A DNA stretch of 64,000 nucleotides. Origin: Zhongshania marina (lineage in GTDB: Bacteria; Pseudomonadota; Gammaproteobacteria; Pseudomonadales; Spongiibacteraceae). Positions 17,285 through 58,703 of the stretch are shown one piece after another. Where the stretch lies: the NCBI RefSeq assembly GCF_002915595.1, contig NZ_PQGG01000012.1:124001-188000 (forward strand). The letters are read 5' to 3'. How positions within the stretch are numbered: position 1 is the stretch's first letter; the number at the start of each line of letters is the position of its first letter. A model generated the notes under the pieces. That model had not been told where the DNA came from. It was given only the letters and a program-made list of their open reading frames with translations, and made no database searches. The translations under genes were made by a program, and so were the position numbers.

Positions 17285-17361
17285 GTCCCCGTGGCACAGC
17301 TGGATAGCGCGGCCCCCTCCTAAGGGGCAGGTCACAGGTTCGAATCCTGTCGGGGACACCA
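17285..17361 (+). tRNA. tRNA-Arg (anticodon CCT)
   Basis: A 77-base cloverleaf. The acceptor stem GTCCCCG pairs with CGGGGAC, followed by A and an encoded CCA. The anticodon stem GCCCC/GGGGC holds the loop CTCCTAA, so the anticodon is CCT, reading AGG codons. The T arm is ACAGG TTCGAAT CCTGT. A run of six T follows directly and may help termination. tRNA genes are frequent integration sites, but no integrase or displaced 3' copy is visible. Confidence 0.97.
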
Positions 17362-53816: not shown

Positions 53817-54353
53817 CTAAATTGGGATAAACGCCAGTATATCTACTGGAAACTCGCCACCACTAGGCAATAAGCCAAACAGCAAAGCCGGATTAGTAGG
53901 AACACCCGACAAACCACCACCCGCAATTAATGACAATGGGTTTATTGGCAGGGAGTTAACGTCCGCCAATCCGCCAATTTGCTCAACAAAAGAATTGAGG
54001 GGCAATACATCTAACAAATCTAATACGGGCTGCACAGGAAGCAGTTGAAATGCGCTGATTAAATCAAATGGCGAAACCGGTAAAGCGCTAAGACTAATAA
54101 GGTTGCCACTACCACCCATAACAGCAGATAGATTCACAGGCAATGCATCTAAGCCAGGCAAACCGCCCGACGACACTGAGCCGAGAGGAAGAGCATCTAA
54201 ACCGGGAATACCGCCACCAGCAACGCCGCCAATACTAGTGAACTGCACAAGAATGTTTGTAACAGGCTCTAAAGGGCCTTGAGCCGCACTTAACGAAGAC
54301 AAGGACAGCAGCGCCGCCGCTGCGACAAATTTCTTAACTTTATTCTTAATCAT
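53817..54353 (-). CDS. Exported Leu/Pro/Gly-rich repeat protein
   Basis: A 178-residue protein with a signal peptide (cleavage near SAAQ-GP). The mature part is built from degenerate repeats around LP followed by V, L or I, with two nearly exact copies of GLDALP and further copies SLSALPVSP, LLDVLPLNS and NSLPINPLS. Charge is very low (mostly Asp/Glu), so it is probably surface or outer-membrane associated. No family recognised. The ATG at 54353 has GGGG upstream; the frame also opens at a GTG at 54365. Confidence 0.7.
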   Translation of the reverse strand: MIKNKVKKFVAAAALLSLSSLSAAQGPLEPVTNILVQFTSIGGVAGGGIPGLDALPLGSVSSGGLPGLDALPVNLSAVMGGSGNLISLSALPVSPFDLISAFQLLPVQPVLDLLDVLPLNSFVEQIGGLADVNSLPINPLSLIAGGGLSGVPTNPALLFGLLPSGGEFPVDILAFIPI

Positions 54354-54609
54354 CACGTTCCCCACTGATTAATATTTGAATTTATGACTCCCGTGGCCAG
54401 TAAAGACTATTGACCGCTGAGATAGACATCATAATACACAACCTTGCATATAGTAAGCATGATTAACATCACATAAATCAAGACTCATGCCTTGCAATTC
54501 TTCATTAGCCCGCTAGTAAAATGCCTGCGAGGAAGACCATCAACCACAGCGCAGCGAATGCCGCTCAGCCCTGCTATAATCGCCAAAATCATCCAATGAG
54601 GACTCTCCC

Positions 54610-54888
54610 ATGACCGTCGCAAGTGCACGCCACATTCTGGTAAAAACCGAACAGCAAGCCCAAGACCTAAAAAATCAAATTGCGAAAGGCGCTGACTTTG
54701 GCGAATTAGCCAAAAAATTCTCTGACTGCCCATCAGGTAAAAAAGGCGGCGATCTCGGCGAATTTCGTCCTGGCCAAATGGTAAAACCCTTTGACGACGT
54801 GGTGTTTAAAGAATCGGTACTAGACGTTCACGGCCCAGTTAAAACCCAGTTTGGCTACCACCTGATTCAAACCATTTACCGTAACTAA
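54610..54888 (+). CDS. ppiC: Parvulin peptidyl-prolyl isomerase PpiC
   Basis: A 92-residue single-domain parvulin (E. coli PpiC is 93). [13 protein letters not shown] opens the domain, [20 protein letters not shown] (about 38-57) is the classical signature, and [13 protein letters not shown] closes it. It is cytoplasmic and isomerises prolyl bonds in hydrophobic contexts. Single gene; AGGAC precedes the start. Confidence 0.95.
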
Positions 54889-55173
54889 TCGGGTGTCGGG
54901 TGTCGGGTCATAGTATGACGCCAGCTTTACGCTAAATAATCACAGTTAGCGGCATATAATAGTTTTTATCCAGCACATCGCCTGCCAAGACACTTCATTC
55001 CCGACCACGGATCTAGGTGGGCGCGCGAATACCGTAATGTTCCCTCAAAGAACGGTGAACCGAGGCTCGAGGTATATAGATTCTCAATCGAGTTGAGGAC
55101 AACGGCCGAAGCTCAGCGTTTGAACTATCGTCAGCTTCCGACTCCCGACTTCCGACCCCGCACTTCCAGACAT
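54889..55173. other. Intergenic region downstream of ppiC with short repeats
   Basis: Directly after ppiC there are three tandem copies of TCGGGTG/C (54891-54911), then the 13-bp palindrome GTCATAGTATGAC (54907-54919). Near 55140-55160, inverted versions of the same G-rich unit occur (CTCCCGACTTCCGACCCCG). No open frame is credible. The remaining sequence (54920-55135) shows GC-rich pairs such as CCGAGGCTCGAGG but nothing I can name. Confidence 0.5.
54891..54911 (+). repeat. Three tandem copies of a 7-base unit (TCGGGTG)
   Basis: TCGGGTG-TCGGGTG-TCGGGTC starts one base after the ppiC stop region. Probably a simple slippage repeat; copy number may vary between strains. Confidence 0.6.
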
Positions 55174-55205
55174 AAAAAACCCCGCATTCACTGCTGAATG
55201 CGGGG
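55174..55205 (-). terminator. Strong intrinsic terminator (minus strand)
   Basis: Read on the minus strand, CCCCGCATTCA (55205-55195 complement) and TGAATGCGGGG form a perfect 11-bp stem around a 4-base loop, followed by TTTTTT (55179-55174). No T-tract exists on the plus side. It can end both the candidate small RNA and read-through from the pyruvate carboxylase genes. Confidence 0.9.
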
Positions 55206-55271
55206 CAAATCGGAGAGAATCAGGGAGGCACCGTGTAAATGGGGGCTCACAATGAGCACAGCCCTGACTTG
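55174..55271 (-). ncRNA. Candidate Fur-regulated small RNA (about 98 nt)
   Basis: A promoter with a Fur box (55278-55306) points toward an intrinsic terminator (55205-55174), enclosing about 98 bases with no gene on this strand. The predicted transcript has a small 5' hairpin (GCTCA-TTG-TGAGC, near 55257-55245), an unpaired pyrimidine-rich stretch complementary to 55212-55228 (CCUCCCUGAUUCUCUCC as RNA) that could pair with AGGAGG-type ribosome sites, and a GC-rich terminator ending in six U. Size, Fur control and seed type match RyhB/PrrF-class iron-sparing RNAs; UUGUGAGC recalls part of the RyhB core, but I cannot claim homology. Alternatively the terminator only serves the pyruvate carboxylase operon. 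Confidence 0.6.
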
Positions 55272-55277
55272 ATTTAA

Positions 55278-55306
55278 ATGATAATGATTATCAGTTAATT
55301 TTACAA
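55278..55306 (-). promoter_or_regulatory. Promoter overlapped by a perfect Fur box
   Basis: On the minus strand, -35 TTGTAA (55306-55301) and -10 TATCAT (55283-55278) are separated by exactly 17 bases. TGATAATGATTATCA (55279-55293) is a perfect 7-1-7 palindrome matching the Fur consensus and covers the -10 and spacer, the classical position for iron-dependent repression. Confidence 0.8.
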
Positions 55307-55337
55307 GCCATTTCCGCAAAAAAATTTTACCCTGTGC

Positions 55338-57158
55338 TTAGGCGCCCGCCTCAATTTCAACCAATACCTCGCCAGGTGTTACGCGGTCGCCCTTCTTCAC
55401 AAAAATCTCGACGATTTTACCGCTGATTGGCGCCTGCACTTCGGCCTCCATTTTCATCGCCTCGGTAACTAAAACGGCTTGGCCAGCAGTCACCGTATCG
55501 CCGACCGCCACCAATACTTCCACAATATTACCCGGCATATTAGTGCTGACATGGCCCGGTTTGCTGGCAGACTTACGCCCGCTTACGCCTTCGGCCTTGT
55601 ATTCGTTCAAGGCTTCGAACACCACTTCTTCTGGCATACCGTCTAAGGTCATATACACATGGCGTTTGCCCGCGCCCTTGATGCCGACCCCAGTAATCGC
55701 CACTTGGTAACTCTCACCATGCACGTCTATGACAAACTCGGTGGGAACCCCGCCCTCGCTAACAGGCCGTGCGGATTGCCCAATGGGTTCAAGAACTTCT
55801 GGAACCAAAGTGCCAGCCTCACGCTCGCTTAAAAACGCCCGCCCCAAATCTGGGAACATGGCATAGGTGAGCACATCTTCTTCTGATTTCGCCAGCTCAC
55901 CGACTTCCTTGCGAAGCTTGGCCAACTCCGGAGCTAATAAATCTGCTGGACGCACATCAATTACATCCTCAGTACCTATGGCACGTGCCCGCAAGTCTTT
56001 ATCTACCTCAGCGGGCGCGGCGCCGTAATGTCCTTGCAAATAACGCTTCACCTCATTGGTGATCGTTGTATAGCGCTTATCGGCAAGAATATTCATCACC
56101 GCCTGGGTGCCAACAATTTGTGAGGTTGGCGTCACCAAAGGGGGATAACCTAGATCTTTACGCACCGCAGGAATTTCAGCAAAAACATCGCCAATACGAT
56201 TCAGCGCGCCCTGCTCTTTTAACTGATTCGCAAGATTAGACATCATGCCGCCGGGCACTTGGTTAATCTGTACGCTCACGTCTTCGCGGGTAAATTCGCT
56301 TTCAAATTGGTGATATTTTTTACGCACTTCCCAGAGCTTCGCAGCAATGTCCTGCAGGGCTGGCAGGTCTAAGCCCGAATCTCTTGGCGTACCTTTAAGC
56401 GCCGCGACCATCGTTTCGGTCGCAGGATGGCTGGTGCCGTTAGCAAAAGCCGACATCGCCGTGTCGATAATATCAATACCTGCTTCTATCGCCTTCAACT
56501 GACACAGCCCCGCGAGACCAGAGGTCATATGGGAGTGCAATGCCAGTGGAACATCAACGCTATCTTTTAAAGCACTAACCAGCTCAGAGGTCGCCGTTGG
56601 CGTTAGCAAACCGGCCATATCTTTAATCGCGATGGAGTCTACACCCAGCGCCACCATGTCCTTGGCCTGCTGTACAAATTTAGCCGTGGTATGCACTGGG
56701 CTAGTGGTGTAACACAGTGTGCCCTGAGCATGTTTGCCCGATTTTTTCACCGCAGCAACCGCTGTTTGTAAATTGCGCACATCATTCATGGCGTCGAACA
56801 CACGGAAAATATCCATGCCGTTATCTGCAGACTTTTGAATAAACGCTTCGACCACATCGTCGGCGTAATGACGGTAGCCCAACAAATTTTGGCCCCGCAC
56901 CAACATTTGCAATTTGGTATTGGGTAGCGCCTCGCGCAGCTTGCGCAAACGCTCCCAAGGGTCTTCTTTTAGAAAACGCACACAGGCATCAAAGGTCGCG
57001 CCGCCCCACACTTCCAAAGACCAAAATCCGATCGCGTCGAGCTGGGCGCAAACCGGCAACATATCCTCGGTGCGCAGCCGTGTCGCAATCAGCGATTGGT
57101 GACCGTCGCGTAGGGCAACATCAGTAATCAGAACAGCTTTTTCTTGGCTCATCGTCAT
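55338..57158 (-). CDS. pycB: Pyruvate carboxylase subunit B / oxaloacetate decarboxylase alpha-type
   Basis: A 606-residue two-part enzyme: a carboxyltransferase TIM barrel (about 5-270, with TDVALRDGHQSLIATR and the metal-binding DMAGLLTPT), a conserved PYC/OADA middle domain (about 290-460), and a C-terminal biotinyl domain with the biotin-accepting K569 in EAMKMEA. It transfers CO2 between biotin and pyruvate/oxaloacetate. Often annotated oadA, but with a biotin carboxylase gene 9 bases upstream and no OadB/OadG sodium pump, it is more likely half of a two-subunit pyruvate carboxylase, as in Pseudomonas. Confidence 0.9.
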   Translation of the reverse strand: MTMSQEKAVLITDVALRDGHQSLIATRLRTEDMLPVCAQLDAIGFWSLEVWGGATFDACVRFLKEDPWERLRKLREALPNTKLQMLVRGQNLLGYRHYADDVVEAFIQKSADNGMDIFRVFDAMNDVRNLQTAVAAVKKSGKHAQGTLCYTTSPVHTTAKFVQQAKDMVALGVDSIAIKDMAGLLTPTATSELVSALKDSVDVPLALHSHMTSGLAGLCQLKAIEAGIDIIDTAMSAFANGTSHPATETMVAALKGTPRDSGLDLPALQDIAAKLWEVRKKYHQFESEFTREDVSVQINQVPGGMMSNLANQLKEQGALNRIGDVFAEIPAVRKDLGYPPLVTPTSQIVGTQAVMNILADKRYTTITNEVKRYLQGHYGAAPAEVDKDLRARAIGTEDVIDVRPADLLAPELAKLRKEVGELAKSEEDVLTYAMFPDLGRAFLSEREAGTLVPEVLEPIGQSARPVSEGGVPTEFVIDVHGESYQVAITGVGIKGAGKRHVYMTLDGMPEEVVFEALNEYKAEGVSGRKSASKPGHVSTNMPGNIVEVLVAVGDTVTAGQAVLVTEAMKMEAEVQAPISGKIVEIFVKKGDRVTPGEVLVEIEAGA

Positions 57159-57167
57159 ATCCTTTCT

Positions 57168-58583
57168 TTACAGGCCAGCGTGGGCGGCAATAGCAGCGGC
57201 CACCGCGAGCGCAATATCTTCGGGTCGGCTTTTATCCGAGTACTGGGTCAGTTCGGGGTGATTTTCTACAAAGCTGGTATCGAACTGGGCAGAGCGGAAA
57301 TCAGGGTGCTTTAAAATTTGCTGGTAATAGCTCGCGGTGGTTTTCACACCCTGCAAGCGCATATCGTTCAGCGCCCGAACGCCTCTATCTAGCACGTCTT
57401 CCCAGGTTAAGCCCCAAACAATTAATTTAAGACACATAGAGTCGAAATACGGCGGAATGGTGTAGCCCGTATAAATGGCTGTATCGACCCGTACGCCCGG
57501 GCCACCCGGCGCATAATAGCGACTAATTTTGCCAAAGCTGGGCAAGAAATCATTTTTAGGGTCTTCCGCATTCACCCTAAACTGCATGGCGTAACCGCGG
57601 TAGGAAATATCCTGTTGGCGATAACCCAGCGGCAAACCCGAGGCGATACGTATTTGTTCACGCACAATATCCACACCGGTAATTTGCTCGGTGATGGTGT
57701 GTTCTACCTGAACCCGCGTATTCATTTCCATGAAATAAATTTGATTATCGGCGAGCAAAAATTCCACTGTGCCGGCATTTTCATAGCCAACCGCCTCGGC
57801 GGCCCGCACCGACATCTCGCCGATATAGGCGCGCTGCTCTGGCGTTAATTGGGGCGACGGAGCAATTTCAATTAGCTTTTGGTTGCGGCGTTGAATCGAG
57901 CAATCGCGCTCAAATAGGTGAATCACATTGCCGTGGCTGTCGGCCAAAATCTGCGCTTCGATATGGCGTGGATTAACAATACACTTTTCAAGGAATACAT
58001 CAGCGCGACCAAAGGCCTTGGTTGCCTCAGATACCACCCGATCATACTGGCGTCGCAAATCTGCCTCGCTGTCGCAACGGCGAATACCGCGCCCACCACC
58101 GCCGGAGGTTGCCTTTAACATCACCGGATAGCCAATGCCCGCTGCCACGGTGACGGCGTCTTCAACGTCCTTCAAATTCTCTTCCGTGCCTGGCGTCACC
58201 GGCACGCCCGCCGCCGTCATGGCCCGGCGCGCTTCGGTTTTATCCCCCATGCGGCGAATAACCTCAGCGCTGGGGCCAATAAAGGTAATCCCACGCTGGG
58301 CACATATTTCCGCAAGCTCGGCGTTTTCAGACAAAAACCCATAGCCAGGATGCAGGCCATCACAACCGGTTTCGACTGCCAAAGCCACTAATTTGCGAGG
58401 GTTTAAATAGCCCTCCAAGGGATCGGCACCGACGTTATAAGCCTCGTCTGCACGTTTTACATGCAGCGAAAAGCGATCTGGCTCGGTGTAAACAGCCGCC
58501 GACCGAATGCCCATCTCAGCACAGGCCCGCACTATTCGCACCGCTATTTCACCGCGATTAGCGATTAGAATTTTTTTAAGCAT
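57168..58583 (-). CDS. pycA: Pyruvate carboxylase subunit A (biotin carboxylase)
   Basis: A 471-residue ATP-grasp biotin carboxylase. The start MLKKILIANRGEIAVRI at 58583 has GGAG upstream; the frame opens further to 58652. KATSGGGGRGIRRC (about 158-171) is the ATP lid, and the catalytic EMNTRVQVEH motif is at about 286-295. It carboxylates biotin on its partner subunit. Close in sequence to AccC, but it is cotranscribed with the carboxyltransferase-biotin subunit and divergent from a LysR gene, the layout of the Pseudomonas pyruvate carboxylase locus. Confidence 0.9.
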   Translation of the reverse strand: MLKKILIANRGEIAVRIVRACAEMGIRSAAVYTEPDRFSLHVKRADEAYNVGADPLEGYLNPRKLVALAVETGCDGLHPGYGFLSENAELAEICAQRGITFIGPSAEVIRRMGDKTEARRAMTAAGVPVTPGTEENLKDVEDAVTVAAGIGYPVMLKATSGGGGRGIRRCDSEADLRRQYDRVVSEATKAFGRADVFLEKCIVNPRHIEAQILADSHGNVIHLFERDCSIQRRNQKLIEIAPSPQLTPEQRAYIGEMSVRAAEAVGYENAGTVEFLLADNQIYFMEMNTRVQVEHTITEQITGVDIVREQIRIASGLPLGYRQQDISYRGYAMQFRVNAEDPKNDFLPSFGKISRYYAPGGPGVRVDTAIYTGYTIPPYFDSMCLKLIVWGLTWEDVLDRGVRALNDMRLQGVKTTASYYQQILKHPDFRSAQFDTSFVENHPELTQYSDKSRPEDIALAVAAAIAAHAGL

Positions 58584-58703
58584 CGATAACTCCATAAGGG
58601 GCAATATGCCCAGCTCCGCACAGGCCAACAGCCCGCCTACGTCACTCCGCAACCGTACCGAAAAAACACCTAGATAAAAAATTAATATTTATTTTAGTGA
58701 GAA

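Follow-up and report, generated by a model that had tools for sequence, protein, structure and literature searches.

Whether positions 55174–55306 of the window (the whole 64,000-nucleotide stretch of Zhongshania marina DNA analyzed here) encode a small RNA under Fur control, and which mRNAs such an RNA would act on, is the question raised by a Fur palindrome beside a pyruvate carboxylase operon. The interval is flanked by the following genes.

57168–58652, minus strand: biotin carboxylase subunit gene (NF005525, 939.4 bits)
55338–57158, minus strand: upstream gene of the pyruvate carboxylase subunit B / oxaloacetate decarboxylase alpha type, pycB (NF006761, 901.6 bits; TIGR01108, 826.7 bits; both above cut-off)
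54610–54888, plus strand: convergent downstream gene for a PpiC-type peptidylprolyl isomerase (PF13616 and PF00639 above cut-off; NF011969 slightly below its cut-off)

A LysR-type regulator is encoded past the carboxylase genes on the opposite strand, and among the neighbors of 55174–55306 no protein gene was seen that the palindrome could control. The preliminary description had also placed no gene between the palindrome and the terminator, and this was borne out, as just mechanically called open reading frames of 34–43 codons overlap the interval. The genome holding the window comprises 4.13 Mb in 46 contigs, and related carboxylase loci place the window among Zhongshania, Spongiibacter, and Neomelitea (Spongiibacteraceae). 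In the same region, 53817–54365 encodes a 182-aa protein with a signal-peptide-like start and repeated Gly/Leu/Pro/Ala-rich segments (GLPGLDALP), for which no match was found in NCBIfam or Pfam.

A Fur-like palindrome over a promoter with its own terminator

The promoter, palindrome, and terminator first described on the minus strand were all confirmed, including the 17-base spacer and the hairpin with six T.

55301–55306, minus strand: −35 element TTGTAA, from the sequence reading and a consensus promoter scan
55278–55283, minus strand: −10 element TATCAT, overlapping the Fur box and separated from the −35 element by 17 bases
55279–55293, strand-neutral: putative Fur box, a perfect 7-1-7 palindrome TGATAATCATTATCA (TGATAAT-C-ATTATCA) sitting over the −10 element
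55174–55206, minus strand: intrinsic terminator, a 12-pair hairpin (one G-T pair) followed by six T at 55179–55174, the first T of the run being scored by the terminator scan as the G-T pair of the stem

Promoter and terminator of this unit both appeared in the consensus scan, with one promoter of this class found at the locus against 1.6 expected and two terminators against 1.9, neither of which is rarer than chance. Within the 64 kb, TGATAATNATTATCA had a single exact match, namely the palindrome on the −10 element. When up to three mismatches were allowed, the palindrome had 8 matches in the window against 2.94 expected, a count reached by 3 of 100 shuffles, and each of the seven further matches carried three mismatches. 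The conservation of the unit in relatives, described below, takes it beyond chance. A predicted Fur box over its own promoter is a feature that the unit shares with Fur-regulated iron-sparing sRNAs.

Conservation of the unit in the clade

The genus-level clade of Zhongshania, Spongiibacter, and Neomelitea was represented by 18 genomes, in which we searched for homologues by BLASTN, by a covariance model from six sequences, and by reading the pycB flank in all 18. The conservation check proposed in the preliminary description gave a positive result, as the RNA with a Fur-like box and a terminator was present in 13 of the 18 genomes. These fell into sequence class A (six genomes: G000, G002, G003, G005, G006, and G013) and class B (seven genomes: G008, G009, G010, G012, G015, G016, and G017). 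When 23 loci were searched with a model built from just four class B sequences, all 13 were recovered at E < 0.01; nine of these, including all six of class A, had not gone into the model, which indicates that A and B are one family. At the Neomelitea salexigens locus, the first 200 bases past the pycB match were identical to those of G009.

The promoter was retained throughout the 13 homologues (the window's copy counted), each having TTGNNN at the exact 17-base distance from a −10 element of the form TATCAT, TATCGT, TATTGT, or TACTAT. Around this −10 element, all 13 also had a Fur-like 15-base box matching the palindrome at 12–15 of the 15 positions, with the free central base counted. The unit directly follows pycB in 11 of the 18 genomes, which would suit a reading of the hairpin as the mere 3′ terminator of the pyc operon and of the palindrome as a chance or vestigial Fur site; the chance-level promoter and terminator scans point the same way. 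However, in two genomes (G002 and G005) approximately 1.9 kb separates pyc from the RNA and yet promoter, box, and terminator are all retained, indicating that the unit is not merely the 3′ end of pyc. The promoter kept in all 13 homologues, together with the two-sided covariation upstream of the terminator and the invariant UCUCUCC motif reported in the next section, also speaks against a mere pyc terminator, and we rejected this explanation as highly improbable.

The remaining five genomes lack an intact unit. G007 has a recognizable RNA and terminator at the same place and has lost the Fur box; this copy (L028, around 1501–1601), in which the basal stem is also changed, looks like a regulator after losing iron control. 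In G001 a terminator-like remnant is all that remains, and no RNA was found in G004, G011, or G014 with the covariance model or in the pycB flank. Joint loss of box, −10 element, and terminator in close relatives had been named beforehand as evidence against a small RNA. Such loss was seen in part, as the unit is lost or reduced in these five genomes and kept in the other 13; considering that the same five also lack the sdhC site described below, the pattern favors the small RNA. Three sister-genus genomes, whose pycB flank was also read (in G020, for 281 bases to the contig end), gave no RNA at E ≤ 0.1.

Predicted fold and covariation

With the 5′ end placed from the −10 element, the predicted RNA has the following parts.

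55174–55271, minus strand: predicted small RNA of about 98 nt
55262–55269, minus strand: 5′ arm of basal stem P1 (AGUCAGGG), from the fold and covariation
55234–55251, minus strand: predicted apical hairpin with the loop CCCCCA, its CCCCC stretch being kept in 13 of 13 homologues
55218–55225, minus strand: 3′ arm of basal stem P1 (CCCUGAUU), from the fold and covariation
55212–55218, minus strand: UCUCUCC, the same in 13 of 13 homologues and the proposed seed for predicted pairing with sodB and sdhC
55207–55217, minus strand: linker CUCUCCGAUUU, single-stranded in the predicted fold

The predicted fold of 55272–55174 had an energy of −41.5 kcal/mol; shuffled sequences averaged −26.1 (z = −4.4), and none of 200 was as good. 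MAFFT placed the basal stem out of register between classes A and B, and base changes were therefore counted on an alignment of the 13 sequences fitted to the covariance model, in which 94.8% of the cells pair. On this alignment, which leans towards the structure, two-sided changes were seen in 16 of the 20 modeled pairs and in 12 of the 13 pairs of the basal stem, whereas sliding the partner by 1–3 columns left 5–9 such pairs and the shuffled mean was 10.6. The single-sequence folds support the structure independently of the fitted alignment. Just after the basal stem, UCUCUCC did not vary in any homologue, and the CCCCC stretch, which lies within the first 50 bases of each RNA, was assigned no pairing partner.

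The pyrimidine-rich stretch complementary to 55212–55228 had been proposed to pair with purine-rich ribosome sites; it holds the invariant UCUCUCC, which is complementary to the sodB site. The accompanying suggestion that the 5′ TCAGGG masks this stretch by pairing with CCCTGA stood in part. That pairing is the basal stem of the predicted fold, but the stem hides just part of the stretch, and CUCUCCGAUUU is predicted to stay single-stranded. The run of T and the U-rich linker are compatible with possible help from Hfq.

The small open reading frames mentioned above might suggest that the unit is a short peptide gene under Fur control and not a non-coding RNA. Among relatives, however, the helix arms differ by gained and lost bases and by substitutions that preserve pairing, and the TTG frame at 55319 starts before the predicted RNA start; we rejected a peptide gene on these grounds and consider its probability next to negligible. 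As modeled, the unit is a short non-coding RNA with an intrinsic terminator and a conserved structure, and it is very likely that this small RNA gene is real.

Known RNA families and matches beyond the clade

RyhB is repressed by Fur, ends in a terminator, and acts on sodB and sdh, and the PrrF targets likewise include sodB and sdh; RyhB, PrrF, NrrF, and BrrF perform similar jobs with different sequences. The comparison with RyhB, PrrF, and NrrF models that the preliminary description called for yielded no family match. At the Rfam cut-off, the sole match in the window was a tRNA at 17285, and eight RNA-bearing loci of relatives likewise gave tRNA only. When 54889–55400 was searched up to E = 10, eight matches appeared, none at cut-off. 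The PrrF1/PrrF2 model (RF00444) scored 16.7 bits on the present RNA against a gathering cut-off of 90, so the RNA falls outside that family; a PrrF search of the window's own genome found none, and the same search also gave 0 of 14 in control genomes. The present RNA resembles PrrF of Pseudomonas as a Fur-controlled iron-sparing type of sRNA and differs in adjoining pyc. Neither RyhB of Enterobacteriaceae nor NrrF was among the matches at E ≤ 10 in 54889–55400, in a search run without a true RyhB or NrrF as positive control, and the RNA was assigned to neither; the likeness to RyhB lies in the proposed function, a Fur-repressed RNA ending in a terminator, with sodB and sdh as putative targets. 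The best sub-threshold match was anti-hemB, Burkholderia RNA 7 (RF02837; 23.5 bits, E = 0.0028, cut-off 49.5), and it spans 55172–55234, the 3′ part of the RNA with linker and terminator.

BrrF of Burkholderia is reported to be a low-iron RNA with sdhC and sodB as predicted targets, for which its authors find no sequence similarity to known Fur-regulated sRNAs; it seems to arise by processing of the hemP mRNA and stops short of the predicted terminator (PMC7377471). Compared with BrrF, the present RNA has its own predicted Fur-box promoter and terminator beside pyc and ppiC and was not placed with it. In the papers searched, judged by title and opening of the abstract, no such RNA was described for Zhongshania, Spongiibacter, Spongiibacteraceae, Cellvibrionales, or Marinobacter.

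An order-wide search of 390 genomes, with a model from all 13 sequences and stricter filters, gave matches at E ≤ 0.1 in 69 genomes, 14 in the genus and 55 outside. E values below 1e-10 were obtained in 12 genomes, all in the clade and all among the source sequences of the model, and the best values outside the clade were 8.2e-6 (G021) and 1.6e-4 (G065 and G172). In 15 loci read from the 55 outside genomes (L076, L079–L083, and L085–L093), no Fur box was found, the best agreement with a 19-base Fur consensus being 12 of 19. These loci resemble other hairpins or plain terminators, and the matches in them were rejected as relatives; beyond the clade, the order-wide search revealed no clear relative. 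The best reading of these comparisons is a lineage-restricted analogue of RyhB and PrrF, apparently unrelated in sequence and outside those sequence families. Two of the outside loci, L076 and L079 (around 1501–1590; G021 and G065, of another family), carry a common hairpin RNA that ends CUGUAUCUCCGCAUU, has a terminator, and lacks a Fur box; it may be an sRNA that is either distantly related or unrelated.

Predicted pairing with sodB

Two of the targets suggested at the outset, sodB and sdh, were compared as candidates. For sodB, the suggestion held well in class A and weakly in class B. UCUCUCC is complementary to the sodB ribosome site, which reads GGAGAGAATCACATG in the window's genome. 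In class A, sodB was found in five genomes, among them that of the window; in each of these the match covered 10–11 nt and none of 300 shuffles was as good, whereas in class B the pairing covered 7–9 nt and was equaled by shuffles in 0.3–50% of trials. Among genes of the window, all 47 controls paired less strongly than sodB, with each control begun at the first ATG/GTG/TTG of its open reading frame, so that some starts may be wrong.

Of the 13 RNA-bearing genomes, the 12 with an identified sodB all carry GGAGAGA ahead of it; the gene was not found in G013, an 84% complete genome. GGAGAGA also precedes sodB in four of the five genomes without the RNA and is missing in G011. The motif is widespread: GGAGAGA followed by ATG after 3–12 bases occurs 32 times in the window's genome, the sodB site included, against 25 for a reversed-pattern control. 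A survey of such sites in G000, G002, and G006, covering 54 predicted proteins with a minimum length of 40 aa, sodB and one G000 site left out, revealed no general enrichment of iron proteins. The sites common to the three genomes belong to one uncharacterized protein and to two proteins that we identify by eye as ribosomal L27 and S3, and GGAGAGA also stands ahead of genes unconnected with iron. In the window's genome, a rubredoxin (Pfam) is preceded by such a site; this protein was absent from the sets of the two other genomes. Another protein behind a GGAGAGA site was at first guessed to be a truncated hemoglobin, a guess that was dropped when it matched no Pfam family.

A site in the sdhC leader co-occurs with the RNA

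The naming of sdh as a target was also supported by sequence complementarity, with weak pairing in class B. Approximately 80 nt upstream of the inferred start codon, the sdhC 5′ untranslated region contains GGAGAG, complementary to the RNA, in all 13 genomes with the RNA and in none of the five without it. The one-tailed exact probability of this split, calculated by hand, is 1 in 8568; on the best tree, the RNA-less label requires three changes, two of them forced by well-supported branches, and with so few independent changes the effective sample for co-loss is small. GGAGAG was likewise absent within 260 nt upstream of sdhC in all four outside-clade genomes in which sdhC was found (two of the sister genus and two of another family). 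RNA and target site are present or absent together in an unusually clear pattern.

At least four of the six GGAGAG bases were unpaired in the predicted leader fold of 11 of the 13 genomes. The hairpin stem around them varies among genomes, and GGAGAG itself is fixed wherever the RNA occurs. In G007 the stem is retained with AGAGAA in the loop in place of GGAGAG; in G001 and G004 the complementary arms are still in the sequence, the GG is gone, and the predicted fold favors another pairing. Pairing with sdhC was matched by shuffles in 0–3.7% of trials in the six class A genomes; for class B the figure was 4–51%, and two of these genomes (G008 and G009) had their best duplex starting at −118, away from GGAGAG. 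Against the 47 control genes, sdhC ranked third, two pairing better, in a comparison of 180-nt controls with 170 nt for sdhC. From sequence, the complementarity to mRNAs of iron enzymes expected of an iron-sparing sRNA is seen for both sodB and sdhC and is weak in class B.

Proteins of the CsrA/RsmA type classically recognize GGA within a hairpin loop, and the loop of the sdhC leader could be such a protein site instead of a docking site for an sRNA, as might be suggested by a varying stem around a GGAGAG that is fixed in 13 genomes. However, the conserved block is the exact complement of CUCUCC in the RNA and is missing in the lineages without the RNA, and we regard a protein site as rather unlikely. 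Slightly less probable still is a real Fur-controlled sRNA whose main targets lie elsewhere, with sodB and sdhC incidental; it would reach those main targets through its C-rich apex, or UCUCUCC would serve as an anti-Shine-Dalgarno sequence of general use. The conserved CCCCC stretch without an assigned partner, the GGAGAGA sites ahead of many unrelated genes, and the short or weak class B pairing with both mRNAs would fit such an RNA, but the presence of the sdhC site in all 13 RNA-bearing genomes and its absence from all five others, and the G007 hairpin that keeps its stem with altered loop letters, do not.

Proposed role in iron sparing

According to the above results, it is highly probable that the unit encodes a trans-acting, Fur-repressed sRNA of about 98 nt that would pair with sodB and sdhC to spare iron. 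Three lines of evidence support the original proposal of an sRNA under Fur control that is functionally of the RyhB/PrrF type: the promoter and box conserved in 13 of 18 genomes, the two-sided base changes, and the complementarity to sodB and sdhC. An iron-sparing role through these two mRNAs appears likely. When iron is plentiful, Fur-Fe2+ would bind the palindrome over the −10 element and block transcription. When iron falls, the RNA would be made and stopped at its own terminator. The basal stem would hold the C-rich apical region and expose the single-stranded linker with UCUCUCC, which could pair both with GGAGAG of the sdhC leader hairpin and, at sodB, with the ribosome-binding site, whose sequence in class A is GGAGAGAAUCA. 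Covering the sodB ribosome site would block initiation, whereas the sdhC site is too distant from the start to act by simple occlusion; there, mRNA decay or a changed leader structure is more likely. The output of Fe-superoxide dismutase and succinate dehydrogenase would be lowered and iron spared; the direction and size of this control, like pairing in the cell, are what we infer.

A broader evolutionary reading, to which we give even chances, is that an iron-sparing sRNA evolved independently in one genus-level clade and acquired in sdhC a dedicated docking hairpin far upstream of the start, whose docking letters are kept while the RNA exists and drift after its loss, the pair having been dismantled about three times. 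If true, the drifting letters are a natural record of an sRNA-target pair being taken apart. The several lineages that lack both the RNA and the sdhC site make it possible to ask, by sequence comparison alone, which target is the most important. A further family beside RyhB, PrrF, NrrF, and BrrF would add a case of convergence and provide an entry point to iron regulation in the marine Spongiibacteraceae.

Near-perfect Fur palindromes were also seen elsewhere in several of the clade's genomes, ahead of an uncharacterized gene at L007 (1567–2040) and also at L010 and L012; in L007 its product, which matched no Pfam family, is a 158-aa protein that starts MTMRFLCETHRQQL.
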